Source: an uncultured Paracoccaceae bacterium (GTDB lineage: Bacteria > Pseudomonadota > Alphaproteobacteria > Rhodobacterales > Rhodobacteraceae). Taken from it: 64,000 bases of DNA. Under the pieces are notes generated by a model. It did not search any database and had not been told where the DNA came from. It was given only the letters and a program-made list of their open reading frames with translations. Of the stretch, positions 2,662 through 14,815 are shown piece by piece (position 1 is the first letter of the stretch; each line of letters starts with the position of its first letter). The position numbers were made by a program, and so were the translations under genes. The stretch lies in the NCBI GenBank assembly GCA_947498645.1, contig CANMKS010000001.1, positions 434,001 through 498,000 on the forward strand. Direction: 5' to 3'.

Positions 2662-2733
2662 CCCGGTGATCAGGCCCCTCCCTGTCGGGTCACCGGGTTC
2701 CCAAGTTCCCGCCGGAGATCGGGTTATATCTCC
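2662..2733 (+). other. Two consecutive hairpins in the 3' region of the response-regulator gene
   Basis: CCCGGTGA(2662-2669)/TCACCGGG(2690-2697) and GGAGAT(2714-2719)/ATCTCC(2728-2733). Confidence 0.6.
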
Positions 2734-2749
2734 ACCTCCCTGTTGGACT

Positions 2750-2779
2750 TGCCCGGACCTTGTGTCCGGGCATTTTTTT
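2750..2779 (+). terminator. Rho-independent terminator downstream of the response regulator
   Basis: TGCCCGGAC-CTTGT-GTCCGGGCA followed by TTTTTTT. Confidence 0.9.
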
Positions 2780-4375: not shown

Positions 4376-5251
4376 CTAGGTGACAAACTCATCCCGGTTG
4401 TACCCTTGCAGATAAAGCAGGCCCGTCAGATCGCCGTGGTTGATCCGCATATCGCATTGCGCCTGTACGGTTGGCTTTGCGTGCAGGGCCACGCCGCTGC
4501 CGGCAAGGTTCAGCATTCCAAGGTCGTTTGCCCCGTCGCCAACAGCCAGAACATCCGCCGCCGAAATGCCGCGCTGTGCTGTGATCTCTTCGAGTGCCTG
4601 CACTTTGGCGGCCTTGCCAAGGATCGGCCGCCCGACCTGCCCGGTCAGTTTGCCACCTTCGGCGATCAGTGTATTCGCGCGGTGCTGGTCAAAGCCAAGT
4701 GCCGCGGCCACCCGCGCTGTGAAGGCCGTGAACCCGCCCGAGACCAGCGCTGCATAGGCCCCATGGGCTTTCATGGTGTTCACGAGTTCATAGCCGCCGG
4801 GCATGTAGGTGATCCGTTGATCCAGCACCTGCGCGATCATGGCCTCGGGCAAATCCTTGAGCAGGCCAACCCGTTCGATAAGTGCCGCCTCGAAATCCAG
4901 CTCGCCGTTCATCGCCCGTGCTGTGATGTCGGCGACACGCGCGCCGACCCCTGCCTCTGCGGCGAGTTCATCAATGCATTCCTGCCGGATCATTGTGCTG
5001 TCCATGTCCGCCAGCAACATCTTTTTGCGCCGGTTCGCGGCGGGTTGCACCACCAGATCAACGCATCCCGCCTGTAGGTCTGTCCAGACCGCCCATTGGT
5101 TGTCGGGCAATGCAGGCACCGGAAATTCAGCGGCTTCGTCAATGGCCAGCCATTGCACATCCCCCCCGCCCCAGGCGTTGCGCAGGTTTTCGACCAAGGC
5201 GCCATCCAGGGCGCGTTCTTGTGGTGTGGTGATCAATGTGACGACAAACAT
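4376..5251 (-). CDS. serB: Phosphoserine phosphatase
   Basis: 291 aa; [57 protein letters not shown] motifs. Confidence 0.93.
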
Positions 5252-5529
5252 GGGTGTCCTCCGGCAAAATCTGCTCTGGGTCTACCTCTGCCGCACGGGT
5301 TTGCCACCCCTAAAAGTCAAAGAGTTTCCTTGGAAATGCGGGAGCGGCGGTGGATCATCGCAGTTTTGTCGTGTTCAAAAGTCTGTTTCGAACAAGACTT
5401 CGACACCGATGGCTTCGACATTGACATCATTGGAAAAAAGCGCCGTCGTATTGGAACAGATTTGCGCCTATCGGAAACATGCGTTCCTGCACGTTCTGTA
5501 GAATCCTTCATTTACCTGCATCGCTTATG

Positions 5530-5620
5530 CCTTCGCCTGTTGCTGTTGCACCGAAGGTTCCGTATGTCCGGCGGTGGGACACCCTTCCCCAACGAAGGGC
5601 GCATATCTGTGAGGATACCA
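5530..5620 (+). promoter_or_regulatory. Candidate structured serC 5' leader (possible serC RNA motif)
   Basis: Immediately upstream of serC: hairpins CCTTCG(5530-5535)/CGAAGG(5552-5557) and CCCTTC(5582-5587)/GAAGGG(5594-5599), then GAGG Shine-Dalgarno and ATG at 5624; position matches the known alphaproteobacterial serC leader motif, family membership not verified. Confidence 0.55.
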
Positions 5621-5623
5621 CTG

Positions 5624-6790
5624 ATGGTTACGACTACACCGGCGTCGCGCGACACCGCGCGCAAACCTATTTCGCGGCCGACCAATCCGCGTTTTTCTTC
5701 TGGCCCTTGTGCCAAACCCCCCGTCTGGAAACTTGATGCACTCAGCGACGCCCCATTGGGACGGTCGCATCGTGCGGCTGTTGGCAAGGCCAAGCTGGCC
5801 GAGGCGATTGATCTGACGCGAGAGATTTTGGGCGTGCCTGCGGATTACCGCATCGGCATTGTGCCTGCCTCGGACACGGGCGCGTTTGAGATGGCGATGT
5901 GGTCGCTCTTGGGTGAGCGCCCCGCACAGATGGTCGCCTGGGAAAGCTTTGGCGCGGGTTGGGTCACGGATGTGGTCAAGCAGCTTAAGATCGATGCAAC
6001 CGTCCACACGGCGGAGTATGGCGAGATCGTCGATATGGCGACGCTGAACTATGACAATGATGTCTGCTTTACCTGGAATGGCACAACATCCGGCGTGCGT
6101 GTCGTGTCGGGCGATGTGATCCCGGCGGACCGCGCTGGCCTGACGCTTTGTGATGCCACTTCCGCTGCCTTCGCGCAGGATTTGCCATGGGACAAGCTGG
6201 ATGTGACGACGTTCTCCTGGCAGAAGGTCATGGGTGGTGAAGCGGCCCACGGGATGCTGATCCTGTCGCCTCGCGCTGTTGCACGCCTGGAAAACTATAC
6301 CCCGGCCTGGCCGCTGCCGAAAATCTTTCGCCTGACCAAAGGTGGCAAGTTGATCGAAGGCATCTTTGAGGGTGCGACGATCAACACCCCCTCAATGCTG
6401 GCGGTTGAGGATTATCTGGTCGCACTGAAATGGGGCCGTGCGATTGGTGGGCTGGACGGGCTGATGCACCGCGCCAATGCCAATGCGCAGGCGATTTGGA
6501 ATTTTTGTGCGGAAAAGCCGTGGATTGCCAATCTGGCCGTTGATCCTGCAACGCGCTCAAACACCTCTGTTTGTCTCAAGTTCACGGATCCGCGGATCAC
6601 CGATGGTGCCGCCTTTGCCAAGGCAGTGGCCAAACGGCTGGAGGTCGAGAAGATCGCCCTGGACGTCGGCGCCTATCGCGATGCCCCCGCCGGTCTGCGC
6701 ATCTGGTGTGGTGCCACGGTCGAGACGTCCGACATCGAGGCCATGTTGCCGTGGCTGGAATGGGCGTTTGAGGCTGAAATCAACGCATAA
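5624..6790 (+). CDS. serC: Phosphoserine aminotransferase
   Basis: Within ORF 5096..6790; true start [60 protein letters not shown]-lysine region. Confidence 0.92.
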
Positions 6791-9291: not shown

Positions 9292-9672
9292 ATGATTGAT
9301 CACATCACCTTTGGTGTTACGGATTTCGCGCGTTCCACGGCCTTTTACGATCAGGCCTTTGCCCCTTTGGGTGTCGCGCGATTGTTTGATGTCCCCGCCG
9401 AACACGCGGATGGCGTCAAAGTCACCGGCTATGGCGATGATCGTCCGTGGTTCTGGCTGGCCGAAGAAAACGCCACAACAGGCATGATGCATATTGCGCT
9501 ACAGGCCAAGAGCACGGCCGAGGTGGATGCATTTCATGCAGCGGCTTTGCGTGCAGGGGGAAGGGACAATGGGCCACCGGGGCTACGCCCGCATTATCAC
9601 GCCGCATACTACGCGGCCTTCGTGCTTGATCCCGATGGGCACAACATCGAAGCCGTCTGCCACGCACCTTAA
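9292..9672 (+). CDS. VOC (glyoxalase-like) family protein
   Basis: MIDHITFGVTDFARSTAFYDQAFAPLGVARL...YYAAFVLDPDGHNIEAVCH. Confidence 0.9.
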   Translation: MIDHITFGVTDFARSTAFYDQAFAPLGVARLFDVPAEHADGVKVTGYGDDRPWFWLAEENATTGMMHIALQAKSTAEVDAFHAAALRAGGRDNGPPGLRPHYHAAYYAAFVLDPDGHNIEAVCHAP

Positions 9673-11594
9673 TCGCGCCGGATCACACCCGTCACGGCCG
9701 CCGCCCCAATCGCTGTAACAATCCAACCCAAGACAATCAGCCACCAGCGCACCCACCACAGCCACTGCCCCCAGGGGCCGCGTGTTGTGGACGGCGCCCA
9801 TGCTGCCTCTTGTCCCAATGACACCAGTGGGACAACCAGATCCACCGCATAGGACAGGGCGTGAAACGTCTCATAGTCGCGTCCCGCGGTTAGCACCGGC
9901 GTCCCGTCGGGGGCGAGCATATATTTGTCAGACCAGACCTTGGCCGGGTTCGCGATCCGCTCGTCTGTTGCCAGCGCCTGCCAGCTTTCGGACATCAGCA
10001 CCGGACCTGCTGTGGGGGCAAAATCGCCCGCCTTCCATGATTTGTCAGCCAGAAACCAGCCGATCAGCACCAGCGTCAGCAGCATGTAGAAACTGCGTTC
10101 CGGCTTGTGCCCGTAGCCCACAACAACACCAAAGACCCGGTCGGCAATCACACTGCTCAGATTGCGCCAGAACACGCGGATGTTGTGCCAGCGCTGCTCT
10201 GCGCGGAATTGCTGTTGCGCATGTTCCAGCGTGAGCGGGGCCACATTCAGCATTGTTTGGTCAACAGGATGCAGCATCGCCAGCCTTGCGACATTAGGGT
10301 CGTTGGGGCGCCGCTTTTCCAGTGCTGCAATCGCCTCTGGCCGTGTCTTTGCCGGGGCGCGGCTGGCGTCCAGCAGGGCCGTGCGCCACTGGGCTTCGCG
10401 CCGCCAGCGCGCGCGGGACGCTTTGCGCTGTTCCTTTTCCTTGGCCACCATGATCGCCCGCGCATCAGAACGGTGCCCAGTGTCGCGCAACAGTTTCGCC
10501 AGTTGCTCATAAGGTTGTGGGTAAAACTCGCGTCGCGACACAGCACCTTTCTTGAGCCATGCCAGACGATCCGCAACCTTGATGCTGCCATGCAGGACAT
10601 CATAGATGAAACCGCTGAGGTAAAGCCTGTCACAGCGTGCCCAGCTTTCAGGATCATCCCAAAGGTCACCCACATGGGCCGAAGTCAGATCAACCGCCCC
10701 TGTCACATCATTCAGCCGCCGCCAGATAAACCCCTCGCGTACCACCAGACGCTGCGCGTTCAACGCATGGCCAGTTGGGTTGCGCATGGTCGCATGGCTG
10801 CAATCCAGCACGCCGTGGATCGCAGCCCCCATAAAGCTGACCTCACCATCGGTGGTCGCTTCGCGCAGAAAGGCATCGCCCTGGACCTGCGTGCTCTGGC
10901 AGTTCAGCGCATGGCCGTCGGGGTTGTGAAAAGCCGCGCCGATGGCCACCAACTGCCCGCCGATCTGTGCGCCCAGCAGGCTGACCAGGCCGGTGGCCGT
11001 GGTCCCTTCGAGCAGGACACTGCTGGCCACCGTCATGCCCTGCGCCTTGAGGGCCGAGCCACCCTCGTTGCGCAGTCTGGCATGTGTACAGGACAAATGC
11101 CCCTTGATCACACTACCCGAGAGCGAGACCTTGCCGTCAATCCGGCTGCCATTCAGCGTCAGGTTGCCTGATATCTGGATGCGCGCCGCGTCAATGCCGT
11201 CTTTGAGGCTGCATTTGACCAGCGCCAACCCGTCGGTTTGCAATTGCTGCATCTGGGGTTGGTTGGCGAATTCGCAATTGAAAAAATCAATTGGCCCGCG
11301 CGCCGTGGTATAGCTCAACTCAAGTGTGCCACCGATCCAGGCCCCGTTGACCGTGACGCCAGAGGGCTGCGTGCGGAAATCCTTGCAACCGCCAAGGATC
11401 AGGTAGCGCAGCAAGGCGGCCCTGATCAGGACAGTTGGTGCCTTGAGGTTCGGCACGCTCCGCCCGATCTGTGCCACCGCCCCTGATTGGGCAGCGTCGA
11501 GCAACGTCAGCTCTGCCGGGGTCAGCAAGTCATCATCGCGCAGCTGTACCACCTGAGCCCAAGTGGTGATCGGATGCAGGTCTTCGTAATTCAT
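9669..11594 (-). CDS. Large membrane protein: N-terminal beta-helix-like repeats, C-terminal transmembrane region; function unknown
   Basis: 641 aa; recurring ALNxQxxxVxGDxFLRxATxxGxVxFxGAxIxGxLxCxxAxxRNPxGHALN units; C-terminal hydrophobic segments FYMLLTLVLIGWFL and WWLIVLGWIVTAIGAAAVTG. Confidence 0.75.
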   Translation of the reverse strand: MNYEDLHPITTWAQVVQLRDDDLLTPAELTLLDAAQSGAVAQIGRSVPNLKAPTVLIRAALLRYLILGGCKDFRTQPSGVTVNGAWIGGTLELSYTTARGPIDFFNCEFANQPQMQQLQTDGLALVKCSLKDGIDAARIQISGNLTLNGSRIDGKVSLSGSVIKGHLSCTHARLRNEGGSALKAQGMTVASSVLLEGTTATGLVSLLGAQIGGQLVAIGAAFHNPDGHALNCQSTQVQGDAFLREATTDGEVSFMGAAIHGVLDCSHATMRNPTGHALNAQRLVVREGFIWRRLNDVTGAVDLTSAHVGDLWDDPESWARCDRLYLSGFIYDVLHGSIKVADRLAWLKKGAVSRREFYPQPYEQLAKLLRDTGHRSDARAIMVAKEKEQRKASRARWRREAQWRTALLDASRAPAKTRPEAIAALEKRRPNDPNVARLAMLHPVDQTMLNVAPLTLEHAQQQFRAEQRWHNIRVFWRNLSSVIADRVFGVVVGYGHKPERSFYMLLTLVLIGWFLADKSWKAGDFAPTAGPVLMSESWQALATDERIANPAKVWSDKYMLAPDGTPVLTAGRDYETFHALSYAVDLVVPLVSLGQEAAWAPSTTRGPWGQWLWWVRWWLIVLGWIVTAIGAAAVTGVIRRD

Positions 11595-11679: not shown

Positions 11680-12732
11680 ATGCCGCGTAAATTTGACAGC
11701 CTTGATGCCATCCTCAACCACGGGTTTGATACCGTGATTGATGTCCGGTCCCCGGCCGAGTTCGCCCAGGATCATTTGCCGGGTGCCATCAACCTGCCTG
11801 CCCTGTCTAATGATCAACGCGCCGAGGTCGGCACGCTTTACAAACAGGTCAGTGCCTTTGATGCCCGCAAGCTGGGTGCGGGTATGGTCGTGCGCAATGT
11901 TGCGGATCATCTTGACGGTCCATTACGCGACAAGGACGGGGCATGGCGCCCTTTGGTTTATTGCTGGCGTGGTGGGCAGCGTTCGGGCGTGTTTTCCATG
12001 CTGCTGTCCGAGATTGGCTGGCGGGCAGAGACCATCAAGGGCGGCTACACCAGTTTTCGCCGCATGGTGAAATCCTATCTTTATGATGATCCATTGCCGC
12101 ATCGGTTTGTGCTGCTGGATGGCTACACCGGCACGGCAAAAACCGCGTTGTTGTCCCGGCTTGCCGCGCGGGGCGTTCAGGTGATCGATCTGGAGGAGTT
12201 GGCGCATCATCGCGGCTCTCTTCTGGGGGCGCGGCCCGGTGGGCAGCCTGCCCAGAAGGGGTTTGAGACGGGGCTGGCCCTGGCATTGCAGCGCTGCGAT
12301 CCGGCCCGCCCTGTGGTGGTCGAGGCTGAAAGCAGCAAGATCGGCCGTATTTCATTGCCCACATCTGTCTGGGTCTCGATGATGGCCGCGCCACGGATTG
12401 TGGTCCAAGCCCCGATTGAGGCGCGCGCGTCCTATTTGGCCAGCGCCTATCGCGAGGTGATTTCTGACCCGGTTGCTGTGGCTGAAAAGCTGGCCCCGTT
12501 GCGCCGCCTGCGCGGCCATGCAGTGGTGGACAACTGGATTGCCCTGTCAAAGGCGGGCGCATTGGTGGAGCTGTCCAAGGCCCTGATGCTGGAACACTAC
12601 GACCCGACCTATGCCAAATCCCGCAAGATTGCAGAGCGCGATGTGTTGGGTGAGGTGACGGCCAATACGCTGGATGCGGATGGGCAGAACCGGGCTGCCG
12701 ATCAGATCACGGCTATTTTGCGCAGGTCTTGA
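11680..12732 (+). CDS. mnmH: tRNA 2-selenouridine synthase (rhodanese + P-loop)
   Basis: 350 aa; VIDVRSPAEFAQDHLPGAINLP, VYCWRGGQRSGVFSMLLSEIGW, LLDGYTGTAKTALL, VVVEAESSKIGRISLP. Confidence 0.93.
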   Translation: MPRKFDSLDAILNHGFDTVIDVRSPAEFAQDHLPGAINLPALSNDQRAEVGTLYKQVSAFDARKLGAGMVVRNVADHLDGPLRDKDGAWRPLVYCWRGGQRSGVFSMLLSEIGWRAETIKGGYTSFRRMVKSYLYDDPLPHRFVLLDGYTGTAKTALLSRLAARGVQVIDLEELAHHRGSLLGARPGGQPAQKGFETGLALALQRCDPARPVVVEAESSKIGRISLPTSVWVSMMAAPRIVVQAPIEARASYLASAYREVISDPVAVAEKLAPLRRLRGHAVVDNWIALSKAGALVELSKALMLEHYDPTYAKSRKIAERDVLGEVTANTLDADGQNRAADQITAILRRS

Positions 12733-14815
12733 TCACCGATCCTGCCGTAACTTCACCAATCAGCGCCGCCGGATAGCCGGCATCCTGCAACTGTTGCAAA
12801 ATCCCCTCTGCCCCTTTGGCCGGGATCGCGGCAAGCAATCCCCCTGCGGTCTGCGGGTCGAACAGAAGGTCAAACACCGGCCCTTCGATGGGTCCGGCCC
12901 CAACCTGATTGGCCGCGAACAGGGTCGAGCGCATGCCACTATCCGACAACGCCCCGGCTCCAGCCATCACAGGGATCGCGCCAAGGTCAAGCGTGGCCCC
13001 CACGCCGGATGCATCACAAATCCCACGCAGATGTCCGGCCAACCCGAAGCCGGTGATATCTGTCATTGCATGGGCTTTGCCCAAAATTCCTGACGCTTTG
13101 GCCTGATCCTGTGCCATCAGATCAAGGCAGGCGATCACATCCGCACCTGCGGCCTTGCCCGCCATTTCCGCCGCCAGAACCGTGCCGCTGCCGATAGGTT
13201 TGGTCACGATCAACCGGTCACCGGGCTTGGCCCCGGCAAGGGTGATTGGCCTCTTGGCCGTTCCTGTCACAGTAAAGCCGATCGTTAGCTCATCACCGAT
13301 TGAGGTATGCCCACCGATGATCTTTGCCCCTGCTGTGCGCATCACATCGGCGGCCGTTGTCATGATCTCGACCAAGGTGCGTTCATGCAGTGTGGCATGC
13401 ATGCGCGGCAGGATCAGGCTGACGGTTGCTGCCTGGGGTTTCGCCCCCATCGCCCAGATATCGCCCAGCGCATGGACCGCCGCAATCCGCGCCATGATCA
13501 CGGGATCATGGGTAAAGGCGCGCAAGTGGTCGGTGCTCATCACTTGCCCTTTTTGTACCTCGCCTGCGTCATCGCCAAAGTGATCGGCCAGGACATGTTG
13601 CAATGTCGCCCGGCCCACTTTGGCACCACAGCCGCCGCACATGGGTTTGTCGCCCAAGGTTTCCTGCACCTCCAAGGCCACCGTCCTTGGCAATTTCGGC
13701 AGTTGCATTTGCGGCAATTCAGCAAACTGATCCATGAACTTGCGGTCGATATGGTCTTTCCATTTCCACAACAGCGCACCCTCGCGCGCTGTGCCGAATT
13801 TTTCGGCCAGGGCAGATTTCTGGCCCAGTGAGATCAGCTTGAGGTAATCACGCTGCGGCTTGTAAGGGCGCAGATCACCGCCCGACAGAACCGCGCGCAG
13901 GTTATCAAAAAGAACCGGGGCTTCGCGCACCGCGTAAACCCCGGCCTTGGGCCTTGGGTCGTGGCTGAGGTGCGCGCAATCGCCCACCGCAAAGACCTCT
14001 GGCGCGCTGGATTGCAGGTTGGCATCCACATTGATGAACCCTTCGTGCAGTTTCAGTCCGGTGGCGGCAATCCAGTCGTGCGGTTTGGCCCCGGCGGCGC
14101 CGGTTGTGAAATCGCTGCGGATCGTGCGCCCGTCGCGCAGGACAAGTCCTTCGGCAAAGACCTCTGTGACTTCGGCATCTTCAATGATCTCGATCTCAAG
14201 TGCGGTGAGCGCGGCGAGCATTTTTTGCCGCGCCTTGTAGCCCAGCGCCGTCAAGACGGTGCCGCGGTCGATCAGTTTGACATGGGGGTTCTGATCCCGT
14301 AGCGCATGGGCCATCGCCATCGCAAGTTCAGCACCTGCAACACCACCGCCAATGATCGCCACATGCGGCCCGCGCGCGGTTGCCCGGAACGCATCCCAGC
14401 GCGACGCAAAGGCCCCCAGGGGTTTTGCCGGGATGGCGTGCGACTTGAAGCCCGGCAGATCAGGCATGGCCGAGGTGATCCCCACATCAACCGCCGCCAC
14501 ATCATAGGCAATCGGTGGACGCCCGGCGACCGTGACCGTTTGCGCCGATGTGTTGATCCCCGTGGCATAGCCGTTGATGATCCGCGCGCCAGCAAATCGG
14601 GCAAGCCTGACCAGATCAATGTCGAGCTCATCCCGCGTATAATGACCGGCCACAAAACCGGGCAGCATGCCTGAATAAGGGGCTGTTGGACCGGGATTGA
14701 TCACTGTGACCCGGACGCCGGGCAGCGGGTTCATCCCCCAACTGCGCAGCACAAGCGCATGGGTATGGCCACCGCCGATAAGAACCAGATCACGGGTGAA
14801 GGGAAGTATATTCAT
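12713..14815 (-). CDS. selD: Fused FAD/NADH dehydrogenase-like oxidoreductase + selenide, water dikinase
   Basis: 700 aa; N-terminal LVLIGGGHTHALVLRSWGMNPLPGVRVTVI pyridine nucleotide-disulfide oxidoreductase; C-terminal CGGCGAKVGRATLQHVLADHFGDDA, MSTDHLRAFTHDPVIMARIAAVHALGDIWAMGA, DPQTAGGLLAAIP. Confidence 0.93.
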   Translation of the reverse strand: MNILPFTRDLVLIGGGHTHALVLRSWGMNPLPGVRVTVINPGPTAPYSGMLPGFVAGHYTRDELDIDLVRLARFAGARIINGYATGINTSAQTVTVAGRPPIAYDVAAVDVGITSAMPDLPGFKSHAIPAKPLGAFASRWDAFRATARGPHVAIIGGGVAGAELAMAMAHALRDQNPHVKLIDRGTVLTALGYKARQKMLAALTALEIEIIEDAEVTEVFAEGLVLRDGRTIRSDFTTGAAGAKPHDWIAATGLKLHEGFINVDANLQSSAPEVFAVGDCAHLSHDPRPKAGVYAVREAPVLFDNLRAVLSGGDLRPYKPQRDYLKLISLGQKSALAEKFGTAREGALLWKWKDHIDRKFMDQFAELPQMQLPKLPRTVALEVQETLGDKPMCGGCGAKVGRATLQHVLADHFGDDAGEVQKGQVMSTDHLRAFTHDPVIMARIAAVHALGDIWAMGAKPQAATVSLILPRMHATLHERTLVEIMTTAADVMRTAGAKIIGGHTSIGDELTIGFTVTGTAKRPITLAGAKPGDRLIVTKPIGSGTVLAAEMAGKAAGADVIACLDLMAQDQAKASGILGKAHAMTDITGFGLAGHLRGICDASGVGATLDLGAIPVMAGAGALSDSGMRSTLFAANQVGAGPIEGPVFDLLFDPQTAGGLLAAIPAKGAEGILQQLQDAGYPAALIGEVTAGSVIKTCAK

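Follow-up and report, generated by a model that had tools for sequence, protein, structure and literature searches.

The 64,000-nucleotide stretch of DNA analysed here (the window) encodes a 641-residue protein, P0001, in which a predicted beta-solenoid is joined through a conserved linker to a C-terminal membrane module. This combination of a beta-solenoid and a membrane domain had been put forward in the original prediction, and it is supported both by the AlphaFold2 model and by the self-similarity of the sequence. P0001 belongs to a family that is real and broad, covering Alphaproteobacteria, Actinomycetota and Cyanobacteriota, and unnamed in the libraries searched; it is widespread but unstudied. 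As to its function, we assign a probability of about 0.4 to P0001 being a membrane-tethered cytosolic receptor or scaffold, possibly with a channel-like output.

The limits of the gene had been given exactly in the original prediction, which left the strand unstated; it is the minus strand, and the start codon is ATG (Table 1). The divergent gene mnmH (11680-12732, plus strand) is 85 bp away, and on the downstream side of P0001 serA/serC come after a VOC-type gene and a gene for a PPP phosphatase, these names being assigned by reading the sequences. Of 36 further genomes of the genus, 17 gave a significant match to P0001 (one of the 17 is marginal), and the orthologues are 71-94% identical to it (16 contigs, plus two shorter cousins). 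Most of them also adjoin mnmH, usually with PPP-phosphatase/serA genes on the opposite side. The dN/dS values (Table 1) were obtained with dS saturated in some pairs. Since the gene is under purifying selection and its mnmH/PPP-phosphatase/serA setting is shared by many genomes of the genus, we conclude from the sequence comparison that P0001 is a real, functional, vertically inherited protein-coding gene.

Table 1. Coordinates of the P0001 gene and of the parts of its product.
Feature	Position in the window	Strand	Evidence
CDS P0001, 641 aa	9669..11594	-	ORF call; dN/dS mostly 0.04-0.24 against orthologues
N-terminal helical cap, residues 1-78	11361..11594	-	AlphaFold2 helices 12-20, 26-37, 59-66
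Predicted beta-solenoid of 48-aa double-coil modules, residues 79-313	10656..11360	-	pLDDT ~95-98; lag-48 self-similarity
Conserved helical linker, residues 314-395 (RLAWLKKG..EFYPQPYEQLAKLLRDTGHRSDARAIMVAKEKEQR)	10410..10655	-	90% identity among orthologues, generally lowest dN
Variable basic helical insert, residues 396-477	10164..10409	-	coverage 0.13-0.51 in relatives
TM1, residues 498-521, GYG.(K/R)P motif just before	10032..10103	-	AlphaFold2 helix 498-521; family hydropathy
Acidic loop from TM1 to the pore-helix-like element, predicted periplasmic, residues 522-577	9864..10031	-	88% identity among orthologues
Pore-helix/filter-like segment, residues 578-603 (Y582, D585, P589, G594, Q595)	9786..9863	-	AlphaFold2 helix 579-587, then extended
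TM2, residues 607-635, then tail GVIRRD	9690..9776	-	AlphaFold2 helix 607-640

AlphaFold2, run with an alignment of 24 sequences, yielded a model with mean pLDDT 87.7 and pTM 0.72. The solenoid, whose absence from a structure model would have spoken against the original prediction, is predicted confidently, with coils of about 24 residues, and the best full-length fold match in the PDB is the synthetic solenoid 4yc5 (E = 1e-3). The BLOSUM self-similarity of residues 79-313 reaches 0.48 at lag 48, the shuffled mean being -0.89 (s.d. 0.16) and the shuffled maximum at any lag -0.13 (2000 shuffles); besides lag 48, only lag 96 (score 0.22) stands out. Three units (at 154, 202 and 250, and at 178, 226 and 274) form this repeat, each consisting of two 24-residue coils with the module G-x-V-S-L-x-G-A-x-I-x-G-x-L...NPxGHALN... 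Thus, the repetition noticed earlier is confirmed, but its period is 48 in three units and not about 47 between near-copies. No signal peptide was found in P0001, and its N-terminus has no hydrophobic stretch.

The solenoid had also been described as pentapeptide-like, which is loosely right, as Pfam Pentapeptide_3 matches P0001 marginally (28.8 bits at a cut-off of 27, residues 235-269 only); the same model matches 17 of the 25 relatives at E <= 0.1. A pentapeptide-repeat protein is expected to contain at least eight contiguous consensus pentapeptides (PMC8145042). In P0001 the longest in-register run is two (shuffled mean 2.5), and there is one strict motif. Because the consensus run is absent, P0001 is, judging by its residues, not a canonical pentapeptide-repeat protein by the published definition. 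With the pentapeptide-repeat proteins Qnr, MfpA and Rfr (PF13576) it shares the beta-solenoid, but it differs from them in the 48-residue double-coil period, in lacking the consensus run and in the additional linker and membrane module, and none of the tests made indicated a gyrase-type character. TM segments and a repeat solenoid are also united in one protein in HglK, a pentapeptide-repeat protein from the cytoplasmic membrane of Anabaena; in HglK, four TM segments lie in the N-terminal part and canonical AXLXX repeats in the C-terminal part (PMC8145042). Compared by this description, P0001 has the reverse order, two TM segments and non-canonical repeats.

The charged linker foreseen after the repeats is present; it carries the motif PQPYEQLA..GH..A and is the best conserved cytosolic part of the protein, while the following insert is missing from shorter relatives. 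At least two TM segments had been expected, and two are indeed found (Table 1), but the segment cited as one of them, SYAVDLVVPLVSLGQEAAW, is not a span: it is modelled as a short helix plus an extended segment. In the model, the pore-helix-like element (residues 579-587) is YAVDLVVPLVSLGQ, followed by the extended V-V-P-L-V-S-L-G-Q. In 25 diverse members, the conservation of D585 and of P589 is 90% or higher, and the TM2 region (residues 604-641) is 91% identical among the orthologues. The predicted topology is N-in/C-in with a cytoplasmic solenoid; residues 522-606 contain five K/R and ten D/E.

A faint likeness of the membrane end to ion channels had been noted, and one alternative is that P0001 is a genuine pore-loop channel, that is, a divergent two-TM K+-channel fold gated by the solenoid, with [DSN][LF]GQ at the position of GYGD. 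The order of elements in the model (TM1, loop, short helix, extended loop, TM2) agrees with that of the two-TM K+ channels (Kir, KirBac, KcsA; PF07885), and, compared by eye, Y582 and G594 are as far apart as the tyrosine and the second glycine of the filter in K+ channels (Y-x11-G). When the membrane end was compared with the PDB using Foldseek, K+ channels (Kir, KirBac, KcsA, hERG and Eag) constituted 37 of the 50 listed matches and 16 of the first 18, although these matches are not independent, because many of the K+ channel chains in the PDB are redundant. None of the 50 is significant (all E >= 1), and the K+ channels have TM-scores of 0.23-0.39 when normalised by query length. The sequence comparisons also speak against a channel: hhalign with 25 alphaproteobacterial Ion_trans_2 K+ channels, full-length or pore-only, produced non-significant probabilities of 0.5-2.2% and scores that differ from column-shuffled controls by no more than about 2.2 s.d. 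(reversed controls were also run), with the best stretch pairing TM2 with TM2 and leaving the filter unaligned. Pfam Ion_trans_2 matched none of the 25 members at E <= 0.1. P0001 differs from the K+ channels in lacking a TVGYG-type selectivity filter, its segment being VPLVSLGQ and the family pattern at this position P[IV][IVL][DSN][LF]GQ. Thus, channel homology was rejected at the sequence level and is unproven, and what stands of the earlier claim is a weak fold resemblance, not membership. We consider a genuine pore-loop channel unlikely, and conduction of ions by P0001 is similarly doubtful. A pentapeptide-repeat K+ channel in the same genus was considered as a precedent and dropped, as the protein inspected (L080) has no evident pentapeptide repeat.

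In several genomes of the genus there is a tandem paralogue, usually about 45 nt upstream, the window genome having one copy. The lengths of these paralogues upstream of the orthologue differ (3761-5956 in L001, 4798-6486 in L008 and 4585-6435 in L012). The identity between tandem paralogues is 42% in the solenoid, 58% in the linker, 69% in the pore-like segment and 67% in TM2. In the shorter cousins (L017 and L018) the solenoid covers 59% of that of the window protein, and the linker, the pore-like segment and TM2 are better conserved. These proteins thus appear to join a varying recognition part to a constant output part. Gene conversion between the tandem copies was rejected, as their last 90 nt are 60-68% identical within a genome versus 62-72% between genomes.

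Six members (L116, L120, L121, L123, L136 and L137) have a signal-peptide-like start, as judged by hydropathy and by eye, and form one clade (support 95/85 in a tree of 37 rows). Their TM1-TM2 loops are approximately neutral or positive (net charge from -1 to +4), their last eight residues include 0-1 K/R, and the GQ motif is retained in none of the six. In the members without a signal peptide, for the most part, the loop is acidic, the tail has at least two K/R and the motif reads GQ or HQ/RQ/EQ; the loop charges of two paralogues, L001_par and L008_par, where TM1 was mislocated, are left out. According to the positive-inside rule, the charge bias reflects the orientation in the membrane. Since the bias is reversed in the six relatives and they carry signal peptides, their membrane topology is probably inverted, and the solenoid would be periplasmic.

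If the membrane module were a pure anchor, its hairpin would tether an elongated, perhaps polymerising, bactofilin-like solenoid to the inner membrane, and the re-entrant segment would be structural. The apparent inversion of the signal-peptide clade, which lacks the GQ motif, leaves membrane attachment as the common denominator and thus agrees with an anchor, as does the absence of a conserved partner or operon gene across families (18 loci). Bactofilins (PF04519) have a similar beta-solenoid and weakly matched 2 of the 25 members (best E = 0.017); P0001 itself differs in having no PF04519 match and in carrying the C-terminal membrane module. On the other hand, the acidic loop, D-x3-P-x4-GQ and TM2 are unusually conserved for a mere anchor, and the solenoid, supposedly the working part, diverges fastest. 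A pure anchor is hence possible, but we hold it only tentatively.

P0001 is well predicted to be a single-gene inner-membrane protein consisting of the cap, a beta-solenoid of 24-residue coils, the linker, and a module of TM1, acidic loop, short helix with extended loop, and TM2. In our preferred reading, that of a tethered receptor or scaffold, the solenoid could serve as a recognition or assembly surface whose state might be passed on by the linker to the membrane module. This module probably forms oligomers, and in it the conserved D-x3-P-x4-GQ segment may dip into the membrane in the manner of a pore loop; the whole would be a receptor or scaffold and possibly a gated pore. In favour of it we counted the architecture and confidence of the AlphaFold2 model, the near-invariant D585 and P589, the GQ/HQ/RQ end of the segment and the basic tail, both kept by nearly all members that lack a signal peptide, the conserved output part and the K+ channel fold matches; against it, the E-values of these matches, profile scores close to those of shuffled controls, the absence of a meaningful match in a viral structure library, and the absence of a shared partner. 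As the sister clade is probably inverted, conduction would not be the general function of the module. An extended version, with a solenoid-coupled, pore-loop-like membrane-domain family in at least three phyla, flipped in one clade and forming solenoid-gated channels in the upright ones, seems to us improbable.

At E <= 1e-3, a sample of 289 alphaproteobacterial genomes contained 13 with a relative, two of which are marginal cases, and the phylum sample of 399 genomes contained 12, of which one is marginal; both counts include the window genome and one congener. They also occur on plasmids of Streptomyces, Rhodococcus, rhizobia and Acaryochloris. Two plasmid relatives, from Acaryochloris (L042, 3932-6218) and Roseomonas (L043, 3800-5490), are split into two overlapping ORFs, probably due to frameshifts or sequencing errors, and the neighbours of L042, L136 and L137 are caspase-like, trypsin-like or CU044_2847-type genes. 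In line with the original prediction, no characterised family matched P0001 over its full length: the 35-residue Pentapeptide_3 match is the sole one in Pfam, NCBIfam, PADLOC and PDB sequences gave none, and for neither the linker nor the membrane end is there a model in Pfam or NCBIfam. Nothing useful was retrieved from the PDB by sequence or profile, matches to phytase (E = 0.04) having vanished when a profile was used, and no account of the family emerged from literature searches that combined pentapeptide repeats with terms for membranes or channels.

The Actinomycetota relatives are annotated as "membrane-associated oxidoreductase". Homology of the Streptomyces protein of this name covers the solenoid, the linker and the membrane module (tblastn, alignment and tree); it shares PQPYEQLA and the YALDLLLPIIDFGQ segment with P0001, and its acidic loop is shorter. 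The annotation alone suggests a redox function, and no redox domain matched any of the 25 members, including the Streptomyces one (L039). In S. lividans the gene so named (SCO6657) adjoins 6-phosphogluconate dehydrogenase genes (PMC6302529), and the name may have been taken from this neighbour. Thus, an oxidoreductase is hardly credible. A linker and membrane domain found across three phyla has no Pfam or NCBIfam model and is mislabelled in Streptomyces, and the family deserves a domain definition, which would correct this label and provide many uncharacterised solenoid proteins with a testable membrane output. The probable topology flip, in turn, offers a compact example from nature in which homologous membrane domains are oriented oppositely.

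Pentapeptide repeats are known as modules of conflict or defence-type systems (PMC7159879), and a signalling component of such a system is a further alternative. It agrees with the positions of the Acaryochloris pMB04 relative (L042) beside caspase and CU044_2847 proteins, the S. meliloti pSymA relative beside a caspase and a C1 peptidase, and the Mesorhizobium pOM4 relative beside a trypsin-like gene. For the window gene, a defence island was rejected on account of the conserved metabolic neighbourhood, and vertical inheritance points the same way. P0001 has no PADLOC family at E <= 1, the search for relatives in phages and viral contigs gave no phage match and no encoded relative, and a simple peptidase motif is absent near 18 members from whole genomes. 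We therefore regard a defence role as very unlikely, and the peptidase neighbours may be relevant to the three plasmid lineages only.

Elsewhere in the window, a SelD-like 700-residue protein with an NADH-dehydrogenase-like N-terminal half (12713-14815, minus strand) adjoins mnmH, the gene for tRNA 2-selenouridine synthase; these identities come from reading of the sequence, and the adjacency suggests a tRNA selenouridine pathway. Rfam matched SorX, a small RNA of singlet-oxygen resistance, at 2706-2777 (plus strand, 72.2 bits), just 3' of a response-regulator gene (1965-2651). A second Rfam match, to the serC leader (5572-5623, plus strand, 67.7 bits), is situated upstream of serC and suggests that the start of the listed 564-residue ORF (5096-6790) was placed too far upstream.
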